Assembly: GCA_934661195.1 (NCBI GenBank)
Contig: CAKUJD010000002.1
Span: forward strand, 62,001-126,000
Source: an uncultured Muribaculaceae bacterium
GTDB taxonomy: Bacteria; Bacteroidota; Bacteroidia; Bacteroidales; Muribaculaceae
Direction of reading: 5' to 3'
DNA: 64,000 bases
In this document: piece after piece, positions 3,062 to 46,683 of the stretch
How positions within the stretch are numbered: the first letter of the stretch is position 1
Layout: each line of letters opens with the position of its first letter
Notes under the pieces: model-generated
Told to the model about the DNA's origin: nothing
The model's database searches: none
What the model saw: only the letters and a program-made list of their open reading frames with translations
Program-made: the position numbers and the translations under genes

Positions 3062-4582
3062 TTATTGTTTGTTGATCAGTCCTTTGCCGGTCATGTCGGC
3101 AGGCTGAGGAAGATCCATGATTTGGAGAATCGACGGCGCCACATCGGCCAGGCGGCCGTTTTCCACGGTGGCCTTCTTGTTGGCTGTGACATACACAAAG
3201 GGCACGGGGTTGAGCGAGTGCGCTGTGTTGGGAGTGCCGTCGGCGTTGAGGGCGTGGTCGGCGTTGCCGTGGTCGGCAATGATTATCACCTCATAGTCGG
3301 CTGCCTTGGCAGCCTCCACGGTGTCGCGCACGCAGTTGTCGATGGCCACTGCGGCCTTCTCGATTGCCTCATACACGCCGGTGTGGCCCACCATGTCGCC
3401 GTTGGCATAGTTCACCACAATGAAGTCGTATTTCTTTTCGCCGATGGCAGCCACCAGCTTGTCTTTCACCTCATAGGCACTCATCTCGGGCTTCAGGTCG
3501 TAGGTTGCCACCTTTGGCGAGGGCACCAGTATGCGGTCTTCGCCTTCGAATGGCGCTTCGCGTCCGCCGTTGAAGAAGAACGTCACGTGGGCATACTTCT
3601 CGGTCTCGGCGATGTGCAGCTGGTGCAGACCCTTGTTCGACAGATACTCGGCCAGGGTGTCCTTCACATTCTCCTTCTTGAAGAGGATGTGAACGCCTGT
3701 GAACGACGAGTCGTAGGGGGTCATGCAGTAGAATTGCAGGTCCTTGATGGTGTGCATTCCCTGCTCGGGTATGTCGTGCTGCGTCAGGGCAATGGTCATC
3801 TCCTTTGCGCGGTCGTTGCGGTAGTTGAAGAAAATCACCACGTCGCCTTCCTTGATGCGGCCGTCCACGGTGCTGTTCACGATGGGTTTGATGAACTCGT
3901 CGGTCACGCCCTCGTCATACGACTCCTGCACGGCCTGCACCATGTTGTCGCTCTTGCGGCCCACGCCGTTCACCAGCTGGTCGTAGGCCAGCTTCACGCG
4001 GTCCCAGTTCTTGTCGCGGTCCATGGCATAGTAGCGGCCTGTGATTGTGGCCACCACTCCTGCGCTTTGTGCGCAGTGCTTCTCCACATCGGCAATGAAG
4101 CCCTTGCCGCTTTCAGGGTCGGTGTCGCGGCCGTCCATGAAGCAGTGCAGATACACATTCTTCAGATTGTATTCCTTGGCGATGTCGCACAGGGCAAACA
4201 GGTGCTCGAGCGAACTGTGCACGCCGCCGGTGCTGGTGAGTCCCATAAAGTGCATGCCCTTGCCTGTGCGCTGCGCATAGCTGAATGCCTCAACCACTTC
4301 TGGATTCTTTAGAATCGACTTGTCGGCAATGGCGCGGTTGATCTTCACCAGATCCTGGTACACCACGCGGCCGGCGCCAATGTTGAGGTGGCCCACCTCG
4401 CTGTTGCCCATCTGGCCGTCGGGCAGACCCACGTTTTCACCGCTTGCCTGAAGCTGGCTGTTGGGGTAGTTCTTGAGCAGGCTGTCCCAGTAGGGGGTGG
4501 GGGCGTTGTAAATTGCGTCACTCTTGCTGTGGTCACCTATTCCCCAGCCGTCGAGAATCATCAGTAATGCTTTCTTTCCCAT
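3062..4582 (-). CDS. gpmI: 2,3-bisphosphoglycerate-independent phosphoglycerate mutase
   Basis: A 506-residue iPGM, full length for the family. It interconverts 3- and 2-phosphoglycerate in glycolysis and gluconeogenesis in the cytoplasm using two Mn ions. Visible are the metal Asp in ILDGWGIG (residue 11), the phosphoserine nucleophile Ser61 in [14 protein letters not shown], and the C-terminal metal motif ADHGNADH. It is flanked by its own promoter upstream and a strong terminator downstream, so it appears monocistronic. Confidence 0.97.
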
Positions 4583-4653
4583 AATTCTTTCGTTTCTGTG
4601 TTTATTTTAGTTTCGTTTAGTTTCGTTTGCCAAGTTACTCGCTTTCGCAGCTA

Positions 4654-4685
4654 CAAAGATACGCCACTTGTGGCACTGTGTCAAG
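4654..4685 (-). promoter_or_regulatory. Bacteroidetes-type promoter of gpmI
   Basis: Reading the minus strand, a CTTG box (4682-4685), a 20-nt spacer and TATCTTTG (4654-4661) match the -33/-7 consensus. The predicted leader is about 65 nt. Confidence 0.7.
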
Positions 4686-4752
4686 CGGTAAGCAAGCCAA
4701 TAGTTGCCGTATTTAAGAAAATTTACACTTTGTGGCTGGCCGACAACAACAA

Positions 4753-4781
4753 ATGGGCCGCTGCCTTTGGCAGTAGCCCAT
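4753..4781 (-). terminator. probable terminator of rplS
   Basis: A hairpin 40 nt past the rplS stop: ATGGGC and CTGCC on one arm pair with GGCAG and GCCCAT on the other around an AAA loop. It is followed by TTGTTGTTG rather than a clean T run. Confidence 0.6.
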
Positions 4782-4820
4782 ATTGTGATTGCTGAAATGC
4801 GACTTTTGCAAGCCTTGCCC

Positions 4821-5189
4821 TTAAGCCTCCTTCTCCTTTGTGAGGATGCGGCGCTCCTTGATGCGGGCCTTCTTGCCGGTGAGGTTGCGCAGATAGTAGA
4901 TGCGGGCGCGGCGCACACGGCCGTGCTTGTTGATTTCGATGCTGTCGATAAACGGCGACTCGATGGGGAAGATACGCTCCACACCGATGTTGTCGCTGAT
5001 TTTGCGCACTGTGAAACGCTTCTTGTCGCCCTCGCCGCTGATTTTCAGCACTGTGCCGCGATACTTCTGGATACGCTCCTTGTTACCCTCTTTAATGCGG
5101 TAGGCCACTGTGATGGTGTCACCGGGATAGAATACGGGAAGTTCCTTCTTTGTAGCAAATGCTTGCTCAACAACTTTAATTAAGTCCAT
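4821..5189 (-). CDS. rplS: 50S ribosomal protein L19
   Basis: A 122-residue L19. It sits at the 30S-50S interface. The body contains the family hallmarks FYPGDTITVAYRIKEGNKER, RVERIFPIESPFI-like core (here GVERIFPIESP) and RRARIYYLRN, with a basic C-terminal tail. It stands alone, with its own consensus promoter (5281-5311) and an 84-nt leader, unlike the usual rimM-trmD-rplS operon of other phyla. Confidence 0.97.
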   Translation of the reverse strand: MDLIKVVEQAFATKKELPVFYPGDTITVAYRIKEGNKERIQKYRGTVLKISGEGDKKRFTVRKISDNIGVERIFPIESPFIDSIEINKHGRVRRARIYYLRNLTGKKARIKERRILTKEKEA

Positions 5190-5280
5190 TTTGATTTTAT
5201 CGTTTTTTCTTTCAACATTTTCTTATCGCAATATTCACAAGCCACTCGATATTTCTTGCCAGAGATTACGAAAAGCGGTG

Positions 5281-5311
5281 CAAATTTAGCACTTTTTCCC
5301 GACCAAGCAAA
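5281..5311 (-). promoter_or_regulatory. promoter of rplS (perfect -33/-7)
   Basis: On the minus strand TTTG (5308-5311), a 19-nt spacer, then TAAATTTG (5281-5288). This is an exact match to the Bacteroidetes consensus and places the transcript start near 5277. Confidence 0.85.
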
Positions 5312-5396
5312 ATATTTGAGCAGCTAACTGCCTAACGTTGGCGTTTTTCTGCTGTTCCGTCTCTTATATTATATGTGAAGTTGTGCGAAAAATGCT

Positions 5397-5404
5397 TAAC
5401 TTTG
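5397..5404 (+). promoter_or_regulatory. -7 box of the serine protease gene
   Basis: TAACTTTG lies 33 nt before the protease ATG. A weaker TTGTG at 5381 may serve as the upstream box (spacer short, about 12-16 nt). Confidence 0.6.
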
Positions 5405-5436
5405 TGCGTTGAAATCATTTTTTTTGAACCCCGACT

Positions 5437-6579
5437 ATGAATCATAAGTTTACATTTCACACGCTGTGGGCGGCCATGATGGCGCTTGCGCTCACATTCG
5501 CATCATGCAGTGGCGAGAAAGACGCTCAGACGCTTTTCAGCGAGGACGCAGGCGGCGTGGTGGTGATCGTCAACCGCTTTTACTACGAGCTGCACCTGGG
5601 CAACGGCGAAACGCTATATTTCACCGGCCTTGACGACGATGGCGACATCAGCGGCCTCACGGCCGACCTCAACGAGGTGAAGCGCAACAAGGCCGAGAGC
5701 TACGGCACCGGCTTTTTCGTCGACGGCAAGGGCCTAATTCTCACCAACCGCCACGTGGTGCAGCCTGTCATCGACAAGCAGCAGGTGCAGCGCGCCTGGT
5801 CGTCGATCATCGCGGCCTACAAGCAGCTGTGCGAAAGCTATGCCCAGCAGCTGTCCGACCAGTTCGACCAGCTCGAAAGCCAAAAGGAAGACTGCTATGT
5901 GTATGACGAATACACCGACTCATATGTGCCCGACAACGTGCGCCTGTCGCAAATCCAAAGCCAGCAGGAGCAGCTGAGGCAGGAATACCAGCAGGCTGGA
6001 AGCACCTACCGCGGCCTGTCGGACATAAGCGTGAACAACGTCACCGTCAGCTCGGTGTGCGAGCTTGGCATCGCCTACAACGACACCTACGTGAGCTCGG
6101 CCGACGACTTCCTCAACAACAATCCCTGCACAGTGGTGCGCGTGTCGGGCAACGACGATGTCGACCTGGCTCTTATTCAACTCAAGTCGCGGGTAACCCC
6201 CGACGGCGCGCACATCTTTGCCACTGCTGCCCACCGCCACGACGCGGGCTTCCTGTCGTCGCTGTTTGGCGGCGGTGGCGACGCCAAGCTCACCATCAGC
6301 CAGCCGCTGTACATGATAGGCTACAATGCCGGTCCCATGTTGGCCAACACCAAGCAGGGCATCAAGGTGCAGATGACCACCGGCAAGGTCACCCAGCTGC
6401 CCGACGGCGACCGCCTGCTCTACGACATCCCCACGATGCAAGGCTCAAGCGGCAGCCCGGTGATTGACGCCTACGGCAACCTTGTGGCAGTGAACTATGC
6501 CAAGCTCGTGGGGTCGGACAACTTCAATTTCGGCATCCCGGTCAATAAAATCGAGTCGTTCCTGTACGACAAGCAATAG
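5437..6579 (+). CDS. trypsin-like serine protease, predicted lipoprotein
   Basis: A 380-residue S1-fold protease of the chymotrypsin/DegP-like type. The N-terminus is a lipoprotein signal with lipidation at Cys24 (TFASC). The catalytic triad can be read as His106 (LTNRHVV), Asp243 (DVDLALIQL) and Ser338 (QGSSGSPVID). Between His and Asp there is an unusually long, polar, mostly helical insert (about residues 115-190, rich in Q, E, Y), and the oxyanion-loop serine motif is GSSGSP rather than GNSGGP. No PDZ domain follows. It stands alone with its own -7 box. A role in cell-envelope protein turnover is inferred, not shown. Confidence 0.85.
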   Translation: MNHKFTFHTLWAAMMALALTFASCSGEKDAQTLFSEDAGGVVVIVNRFYYELHLGNGETLYFTGLDDDGDISGLTADLNEVKRNKAESYGTGFFVDGKGLILTNRHVVQPVIDKQQVQRAWSSIIAAYKQLCESYAQQLSDQFDQLESQKEDCYVYDEYTDSYVPDNVRLSQIQSQQEQLRQEYQQAGSTYRGLSDISVNNVTVSSVCELGIAYNDTYVSSADDFLNNNPCTVVRVSGNDDVDLALIQLKSRVTPDGAHIFATAAHRHDAGFLSSLFGGGGDAKLTISQPLYMIGYNAGPMLANTKQGIKVQMTTGKVTQLPDGDRLLYDIPTMQGSSGSPVIDAYGNLVAVNYAKLVGSDNFNFGIPVNKIESFLYDKQ

Positions 6580-44030: not shown

Positions 44031-44061
44031 TTTGGAGAGAGCCAAAAAATCACTACCTTTG
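44031..44061 (+). promoter_or_regulatory. promoter of tRNA-Ala (perfect -33/-7)
   Basis: TTTG (44031-44034), 19-nt spacer, TACCTTTG (44054-44061), with the tRNA start 10 nt later. Confidence 0.88.
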
Positions 44062-44070
44062 CACCGCAAT

Positions 44071-44143
44071 GGGGTATTAGCTCATCTGGTAGAGCGCAAC
44101 ACTGGCAGTGTTGAGGTAAGGAGTTCGAGTCTCCTATGCTCCA
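44071..44143 (+). tRNA. tRNA-Ala (anticodon GGC)
   Basis: A 73-nt cloverleaf: acceptor GGGGTAT with ATGCTCC (one G-U, one U-G), D arm GCTC..GAGC, anticodon stem CAACA/TGTTG around CTGGCAG, T arm AGGAG/CTCCT with loop TTCGAGT. The GGC anticodon reads GCC alanine codons. CCA is not encoded beyond the discriminator A. Confidence 0.95.
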
Positions 44144-44148
44144 CTTTC

Positions 44149-44241: not shown

Positions 44242-44287
44242 TGCTTATCTGTAGGGACGCGGCATGCCGCGTCCCTACAGATAAGCA
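44242..44287. repeat. 46-bp perfect palindrome (palindromic repeat, copy 4)
   Basis: The core GGACGCGGCATGCCGCGTCC is extended symmetrically on both sides (TGCTTATCTGTAG.. mirrored) to 46 bp with no loop or mismatch. The left flank shares about 20 nt with the flank of copy 1 (CTGRTTTACAGCTG). Confidence 0.9.
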
Positions 44288-44428: not shown

Positions 44429-46357
44429 TCAAGGGTGCGACTGCTCGAGTTGCAGCATCCATTGCTTGGCGGCAAGGCCGCCTGCATAGCCAGTGAGTGA
44501 GCCGTCGCTGCCTATCACACGGTGGCAAGGCACCACTATCGACACAGGGTTTTGCCCAATGGCTGCGGCCACAGGGCGCGATTTGGCGGGCTCGCCAATG
44601 GCGGTAGCCACATCCTTGTATGAGACCATCGTACCATAGACAATGCCGTTGAGGGCATGCCACACCTTTAGCTGAAATTCGGTGCCTGCCATGTGCAGCG
44701 GCAGTTGGAACTCGCGCCGCTGCCCGGCAAAGTATTCATTCAACTGGGCCAAGCACTGCTTAAGCAGCGGGGTGGGGCAGGTCTCGGCGGTCAACCCCAG
44801 GCGCTTCTCAACCGCAGCCAGCGTGTGACTGCAATTGTAGGCGATGGCGGCTATGCCACCGGTGACTGCGGCAATGGTGATGCGTCCCACTGGCGTGTCG
44901 GCCTCCATGCTGCACAGCCGTCCGTCGGTGGCGGGGCGCAGCCCCATTTCAGCGGCTTTGGCCAGCATCAGCTCATAGGCCTGGGCGTAGTTGTTGCCAA
45001 TAACGCCGTCAAGTATGGCATCTTTTATGGCGTCTTTAATCTTGCCCACTGGCATCGACGGGGCCAGCCCGAACGTGTCCATTATCTCCTGGCCGTCGAT
45101 GGGCGGCTGGAAGTTGCGCACGCGGTCTTTCTCCTCAATGTCAACCAGCTTTTGCTTCACCAATTCAAAATTGTCGTGGAAGCGGCGCACCTTCTCCTGG
45201 TTCTTCGACGTGATGTCGGCGTTGCACAGCGTCATCAGGTCGTCGATGTCGTCGCCAGCGTCAAACAGCAGCCGCCTCACTGCCGAGTCGGTCACCGTGT
45301 CCTCAACCAGCGCAATGGGGCGCATGTGCAGTCCCACCAGCTTTTTCACATATTTCATGTGCTCGTTAAGGGGCAGACGCATGCGGCCGAAAATTTTCGG
45401 CACCATCTTTTCGCCAATAAAGTTGTGGTTGCGGAAGGTCCAGCCCTGCACGTCGTCCCATGCCTTGGTGGCAGGCTTGCCAATGTCGTGCATCACTGCC
45501 GCCCAGCGCAGCCACTCGTTTTGGCTCACTGCCGCCACATTGTCGAGCACCTGCATCGTGTGCAGAAAGTTGTCCTTGTGGCCGCGGCCGTGCGAAGTGT
45601 CCACACCGCGCAGAGCCGCCAGTTCGGGAAATATCAGCTCCAGCAGCCCGCACTCGTTCAGCAGCTTGAAGCCGCGCGAGGGCTTGTCGCTGCGCACAAT
45701 CTTCATCAGCTCCACGGCTATGCGCTCCTTGGTGATTATTTTTATGCGCTTGCAGTTGCGCTTTATGGCTTCAAGGGTGTCGGGATAGATGTCGAAGCCA
45801 AGCTGTGTGGCAAACCTCACGGCGCGCATCATGCGCAGCGGGTCGTCGCTGAAAGTGATGTCTGGGTCGAGCGGGGTGCGGATTATGCGCCGCTGCAGGT
45901 CGCCCACGCCGTCAAACGGGTCGAGCAGCCGCCCAAACGACGCGCTGTTGAGCGAAATGGCCATGGCGTTGATGGTGAAGTCGCGGCGCTTCTGGTCGTC
46001 GTCGAGTGTGCCGTCTTCCACCACGGGGTTGCGGCTGTCGCTCTTGTAGCTCTCGCGCCGCGCGCCCACAAACTCCAGTTCCAGCCCGTGGGCCTTCACC
46101 TGTGCCGTGCCGTAGGTTTTGAACACGGCCAGTGAGCAGTGCTTGCGGCCAATCTTGGCCGCCACGGCCTTGGCCACCTCTATGCCGCTTCCCACGGTCA
46201 CAAAGTCGATGTCGGTTGACTTGCGGTGCAGCAGCAGGTCGCGCACGTAGCCGCCCACCACATAGCATTCGCGGCCCATTTCATCGGCAGTGCCGCCTAT
46301 CAGGTGAAACACGGGCTTGTCCACGTGCTGTTTTATGTCGGAGTAATCTATTTCCAT
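44429..46357 (-). CDS. tRNA nucleotidyltransferase (CCA-adding) fused to O6-methylguanine-DNA methyltransferase
   Basis: One 642-residue frame with no stop between two enzymes. Residues 1-480 are a CCA-adding enzyme/polyA polymerase-like protein: CYVVGGYVRDLLL, the metal Asp pair STDIDFV, RRDFTINAMAISL, and an HD domain (AVMHDIGKPATK, NHNFIGEKM). Residues 484-642 are an Ogt/MGMT domain: TPVGRITIAAV, the DNA-binding VWHALNGIVYGTMVSY and active-site Cys611 in VVPCHRVIGSDGSLTGYAGGL. The join is nine residues after the usual CCA end, and Met484 (codon at 44908) looks like the former MGMT start. Start at 46357; an upstream extension is not supported. See findings. Confidence 0.92.
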   Translation of the reverse strand: MEIDYSDIKQHVDKPVFHLIGGTADEMGRECYVVGGYVRDLLLHRKSTDIDFVTVGSGIEVAKAVAAKIGRKHCSLAVFKTYGTAQVKAHGLELEFVGARRESYKSDSRNPVVEDGTLDDDQKRRDFTINAMAISLNSASFGRLLDPFDGVGDLQRRIIRTPLDPDITFSDDPLRMMRAVRFATQLGFDIYPDTLEAIKRNCKRIKIITKERIAVELMKIVRSDKPSRGFKLLNECGLLELIFPELAALRGVDTSHGRGHKDNFLHTMQVLDNVAAVSQNEWLRWAAVMHDIGKPATKAWDDVQGWTFRNHNFIGEKMVPKIFGRMRLPLNEHMKYVKKLVGLHMRPIALVEDTVTDSAVRRLLFDAGDDIDDLMTLCNADITSKNQEKVRRFHDNFELVKQKLVDIEEKDRVRNFQPPIDGQEIMDTFGLAPSMPVGKIKDAIKDAILDGVIGNNYAQAYELMLAKAAEMGLRPATDGRLCSMEADTPVGRITIAAVTGGIAAIAYNCSHTLAAVEKRLGLTAETCPTPLLKQCLAQLNEYFAGQRREFQLPLHMAGTEFQLKVWHALNGIVYGTMVSYKDVATAIGEPAKSRPVAAAIGQNPVSIVVPCHRVIGSDGSLTGYAGGLAAKQWMLQLEQSHP

Positions 46358-46390: not shown

Positions 46391-46422
46391 CAAAGTTACT
46401 GCATTTGCCGCCAACTCGCAAA
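46391..46422 (-). promoter_or_regulatory. promoter of the CCA-MGMT gene
   Basis: Minus strand: TTTG (46419-46422), 20-nt spacer, TAACTTTG (46391-46398). Confidence 0.82.
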
Positions 46423-46543: not shown

Positions 46544-46683
46544 TGCGTCAAATGTTCGCTTTGCTCCCAAAATGAACCTTTATGCGGCATTTTTCGGCTA
46601 ATGCAAGGCTAACTGCAATAAAATTTCAGCAGAAGTTGATAATTATATTGTAAGCACTAACTAATAAAAACGATTAAACAGAG

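Follow-up and report, generated by a model that had tools for sequence, protein, structure and literature searches.

The window analysed here is a stretch of 64,000 nucleotides from an uncultured Muribaculaceae bacterium (assembly GCA_934661195.1, contig CAKUJD010000002.1, positions 62,001 to 126,000). On its minus strand, at 44429..46357, one gene encodes both a CCA-adding tRNA nucleotidyltransferase and an O6-alkylguanine-DNA alkyltransferase of the Ogt/MGMT type. An earlier note on this DNA had claimed that a single open frame joins the two complete proteins and retains the PCHR active site of the second. This was confirmed: the 642-residue product contains five Pfam domains, and the gene is a genuine single-frame fusion of a complete CCA-adding enzyme and a complete alkyltransferase. 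The features of the gene are as follows.

44429..46357, minus strand: cca-ogt fusion gene, 642 codons, ATG start, TGA stop, uninterrupted frame
44933..46357, minus strand: CCA-adding tRNA nucleotidyltransferase part, residues 1–475 (Pfam, NCBIfam and fold matches)
45878..46267, minus strand: nucleotidyltransferase head domain, residues 31–160 (PF01743 PolyA_pol, 3.5e-27, 95.7 bits, cut-off 23)
45311..45562, minus strand: HD domain, residues 266–349 (PF01966, 1.2e-8)
44918..44932, minus strand: short junction, residues 476–480 (spacing in the alignment and predicted model)
44432..44917, minus strand: O6-alkylguanine-DNA alkyltransferase part, residues 481–642, start approximate (PF02870 and PF01035; PDB matches)
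44519..44530, minus strand: PCHR acceptor-cysteine motif, residues 610–613 (sequence)

Each of the five domains scored above its curated Pfam cut-off, including PolyA_pol_RNAbd (PF12627, residues 187–248, 74.5 bits, cut-off 22), Methyltransf_1N (PF02870, residues 487–555, 39.1 bits, cut-off 21) and DNA_binding_1 (PF01035, residues 560–639, 104.3 bits, cut-off 27). Thus, Pfam found both the PolyA_pol head and the PolyA_pol_RNAbd domain by which a class II CCA-adding nucleotidyltransferase is recognised, and both the N-terminal ribonuclease-like and the C-terminal DNA-binding subdomains of Ogt/MGMT. The same kinds of protein were indicated by NCBIfam, namely TIGR02692 for the CCA part (346.4 bits, under its cut-off of 438.8) and TIGR00589 for the alkyltransferase part. 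A sequence comparison with the PDB matched the latter part to 4bhc, 1sfe and 1eh6.

A structure model predicted from 51 fusion sequences (mean pLDDT 87.9, pTM 0.62) consisted of two parts separated by about 10 residues, the last helix of the CCA part ending at residue 470 and the first strand of the alkyltransferase spanning residues 481–488. Foldseek matched the first part to the tRNA nucleotidyltransferases 3wfr, 1vfg and 5hc9, and the second to 4bhb and 4bhc with a TM-score of 0.82–0.84 over the target. Among the best 50 matches listed from a viral fold library there were nucleotidyltransferases and, separately, one alkyltransferase.

Occurrence and conservation of the fusion

Protein relatives were taken as the best 120 of 8000 scored, each covering 98–100% of the query, and all 120 contained the five Pfam domains. 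The closest of them, on other contigs, were P0002 (95% identity), P0003 (86%), P0004 (80%) and P0005 (79%), which covered 99–100% of the query. The earlier note had allowed that the relatives might all carry two separate genes; instead, a full-length fusion was found in 45 of the 297 sampled Muribaculaceae genomes. G117 is also fused, its contig ending within the CCA part, so that at least 46 of the 297 genomes carry the fusion. One of the 45 matches, that of G025, crosses a TGA, with both domains still lying within one open frame. Among the best 80 loci of a species-genome scan, the fusion was present in L001 only (Muribaculaceae, roe deer rumen); in the other 79, the examined stretch showed the CCA part but no frame for an alkyltransferase. 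In the order and phylum samples, the centre genome alone gave a full-length match among the matches listed (1 of 393 and 1 of 148, respectively); these lists were sorted by E-value with full-length matches first, and a cut fusion might escape them.

Conservation was analysed in an alignment of 167 fusions, 165 of them distinct, comprising the 120 protein relatives, 46 genomes and the window. The 120 relatives had been selected for their resemblance to the window protein as a whole, and this biases the set toward intact copies. The tested CCA and HD residues were kept in 165–167 of the 167 sequences. In the motifs GG..RD, D.D and RRD..N, which we take to be those of class II CCA-adding enzymes, D51 was found in 165 and the other tested residues in 166, the missing row being cut. 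The alkyltransferase residues G575, Y580, R594, N603, C611, H612, R613 and E638 were kept in 166–167 fusions: Y580, N603, C611, H612, R613 and E638 in all 167, R594 in 166, and PCHR as a whole in every one. The Asn, Tyr, Arg and Glu are presumably the partners of the acceptor cysteine of Ogt/MGMT. Since Cys611 is invariant, the fused domain is not an ATL protein, in which the acceptor cysteine is replaced.

The approximate ratio of nonsynonymous to synonymous substitution rates (dN/dS) was 0.02–0.10 for the CCA part in all 12 pairs and 0.05–0.24 for the alkyltransferase part in 11 of them, the twelfth being saturated; dS exceeded 1 in several of the 12 pairs. These values show purifying selection on both parts.

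Short PF01035 proteins, with frames of 118–147 aa, were also noted in six genomes of the family (L202, L204, L205, L206, L207 and L208). All six that were read contain PCHR, which rules out ATL for these second proteins too.

Origin and loss of the join

In a tree of the CCA part (119 rows), the fused rows cluster strongly and six changes are required. Nine unfused rows are nested among the fused ones (G071, G143, G088, G051 and G104; G026; G127, G293 and G177), and therefore the join can be lost. A strict single clade of fused CCA parts was rejected by the approximately unbiased (AU) test (p = 8.7e-7; tree thinned to 49 of the 119 rows, LG+G4 without mixture, the order of deeper groups being open), which requires either losses or more than one fusion. 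The alkyltransferase tree, from which six long or cut rows were removed (five unfused and G117) and in which the fused rows were thinned to 26 of 59, splits the fused rows into two groups; the window belongs to one, and the other includes the unfused G034. The fused rows by themselves were united in 0% of the 200 bootstrap trees; a clade of all fused rows together with G034 was not rejected (p = 0.318). The trees allow a single origin followed by losses as well as two separate origins, and they imply several losses.

The genome G034 (locus L161) has adjacent cca (4073–5506) and ogt (5503–6009) genes that overlap at ATGA in different frames, the sole such pair among 24 unfused loci checked. Its alkyltransferase starts at about residue 479 of the fusion. 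When the two proteins are joined end to end, the glycine of SPIG lies 16 residues past the proline at the end of the CCA part, the same spacing as between the P475 and G491 columns in 157 of the 167 aligned fusions. This pair is either an intermediate or a later split. It bears on two proposals of the earlier note, which had taken Met484 for the old start of the second gene and the loss of a stop codon for the event that joined the genes. Neither was supported. Methionine occupies column 484 in only 5 of the 167 fusions, the start in G034 corresponds to a different position, and translation from residue 484 would cut the first strand as it is placed in the model. Since the G034 genes overlap in different frames, joining such a pair needs a frame change, and the stop-loss proposal by itself is at odds with this layout.

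As to the losses, a tblastn search for domain remnants behind the unfused CCA genes of the 24 loci, including the nine nested ones, found nothing but the genuine genes of G018 and G034. In G154 the fusion is followed by a NUDIX gene, and in G071 and G088 a member of the same cluster comes after cca; by this comparison some losses look clean. In the alkyltransferase tree, the free proteins of G071, G143, G088, G051 and G104 fall among other free alkyltransferases, apart from the fused domains. G018 (L153, 3731–6659) has a free alkyltransferase gene on the strand of cca, about 930 bases further downstream, with one gene between them, and its product also groups with the free alkyltransferases.

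Flanking sequence and neighbouring genes

Three further features of the window adjoin the gene.

46391-46422, minus strand: promoter match TTTG-N20-TAACTTTG, upstream of the fusion gene
44071-44144: tRNA-Ala (GGC) gene whose CCA end is not encoded; a promoter match (44031-44061) lies just upstream
44251-44278: perfect 28-base palindrome GTAGGGACGCGGCATGCCGCGTCCCTAC between the tRNA-Ala gene and the fusion gene, one copy in the window

The mechanical list of open reading frames gives a longer version of the gene (TTG at 46570, 713 aa). The ATG at 46357 is favoured as the start because the promoter match sits between the two codons. The pattern used, TTTG-N19-21-TANNTTTG, which we assume to be the Bacteroidota-type promoter consensus, occurs 9 times in the whole window against 0.44 expected in shuffles and may therefore help to place promoters in this genome. 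A scan for Sigma-70-type promoters gave no more matches than in shuffled sequences.

At the G026 locus, the genes upstream of cca were identified as RNase Y, PSP1, GldH, HAD and M24 peptidase. They recur in part in G034, in the fused G030, G105, G055, G075, G035 and G091, and in the unfused G026, G028, G049 and G069.

Proposed function and significance

Over residues 1–475 the fusion shares its domains and motifs with class II CCA-adding nucleotidyltransferases that carry an HD domain; it differs from them in the additional C-terminal alkyltransferase, and TIGR02692, its best NCBIfam match, is actinobacterial by name. With Ogt/MGMT (TIGR00589; 4bhb, 1sfe, 1eh6) it shares both subdomains and PCHR with the conserved partner residues, but here the alkyltransferase is the C-terminal part of a tRNA enzyme and not a free protein. 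The protein was also compared with Ada (NF011964), to which the alkyltransferase region aligns with 98.7 bits against a cut-off of 345. No Pfam domain beyond the five was found, and hence there is no Ada-type metal-binding or regulatory part; the lack of an N-terminal metal-binding or AraC-type match in Pfam, together with the score below the cut-off, rules out identity with Ada.

A review (PMC10779285) describes alkyltransferases fused to endonuclease V in archaea and to a histone-like part in C. elegans. AGT-EndoV of Ferroplasma acidarmanus likewise combines an alkyltransferase with another enzyme in one chain; the present protein differs in that its alkyltransferase has both subdomains and is joined to a tRNA enzyme. 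The earlier note knew of no described fusion of a tRNA nucleotidyltransferase with an alkyltransferase, and none was found among the matches listed in open-access literature searches. The sequences themselves are already in public databases, where three functional names were given among the best 120 protein relatives, all of them for the alkyltransferase.

The fusion is most probably a bifunctional housekeeping protein whose two activities work independently. The N-terminal part would add CCA to the 3' ends of tRNAs and is probably the sole enzyme of the cell with this task. One match to the whole query was found in 42 of the 45 full-length genomes (two in G030, G151 and G184). The fused genome G284 has one such match, and 25 of the 30 distinct tRNA genes read in it do not end in CCA (ARAGORN, 30 fetched loci; 45 matches in the genome). 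With tRNA genes mostly lacking an encoded CCA and a single match, the CCA part would have to work for translation, and it presumably adds both C residues as well as the A, not just A or poly(A). The C-terminal part is predicted to repair O6-alkylated guanine in DNA, moving the alkyl group onto its Cys611 in a suicidal reaction. The ancestral genes were probably adjacent, with overlapping stop and start codons, and a frame change would have joined them with almost no linker. The likely gain would be co-expression, one single-use repair domain being made with each CCA enzyme. In this account we infer that both parts are active, that they act independently, that expression is steady, and which way the change went.

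Several observations weigh against such a housekeeping protein. In the 11 pairs with a usable dN/dS ratio, evolution is faster in the alkyltransferase part than in the CCA part, and the former has the higher dN in 12 of 12 pairs. Two fused genomes, G030 and G117, have a second short PF01035 frame (131 and 122 residues, respectively) with its own PCHR. Of the 45 relatives in which the exact promoter motif could be looked for upstream of the fusion (G117 is cut), only 2 have it. The operon context of G034 was not found beside the fusion in the window, nor in the five loci of the window's group that were compared with it (G001, G025, G284, G231 and G202). The nesting of unfused rows described above also belongs here.

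Functional coupling of the two parts was considered as well. Alkylation of Cys611 could alter or destabilise the CCA part and thereby lower tRNA maturation, or the CCA part could bring the alkyltransferase to alkylated RNA. The parts abut with nearly fixed spacing, and the fusion is retained across diverged lineages. However, common descent would equally fix the spacing, no contact between the parts was found in anything tested, and a pTM of 0.62 with good local confidence leaves their relative placement in the model uncertain. The domain is also absent in several nested relatives, with the next gene unchanged in some. Coupling is therefore regarded as unlikely. It is unlikely, too, that the fusion is a damage-responsive tRNA enzyme, in which alkylation of Cys611 would change the activity or lifetime of the sole CCA enzyme, or alkylated RNA held by the CCA part would be repaired.

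It is improbable that the alkyltransferase part has become a passive remnant incapable of repair, as its faster evolution and its absence in nested relatives might suggest: its catalytic residues are invariant or nearly so in the 167 fusions (120 of them chosen by whole-protein similarity), its dN/dS is well under 1, and it is the lone PF01035 match in 44 of the 46 fused genomes. The existence of two separate proteins in vivo, through internal initiation or cleavage at the junction, seems very improbable. Methionine is present at column 490 in 45 and at column 486 in 44 of the 167 fusions, but initiation there would cut or drop the first strand, and the exact promoter motif was found inside the frame in 0 of 47 loci. 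Moreover, 71 of the 167 fusions have no junction methionine at all, which together with the poor conservation of Met484 makes a conserved internal start unlikely. An assembly or sequencing error at the junction, for which nothing was found in favour, is ruled out with hardly any doubt by the identical join in other contigs and genomes.

With this fusion, found in a gut bacterial lineage, the maturation of tRNA 3' ends joins the known partners of alkyltransferases. It is also a clear example of gene fusion in nature, one relative having the genes as an overlapping pair and other, unfused relatives branching among the fused ones. Database records of such proteins may be named for one half only. 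The fusion also makes it testable whether a single-use repair protein can affect a housekeeping enzyme to which it is joined, and the damage-responsive reading, if true, would tie translation capacity to the load of DNA alkylation.
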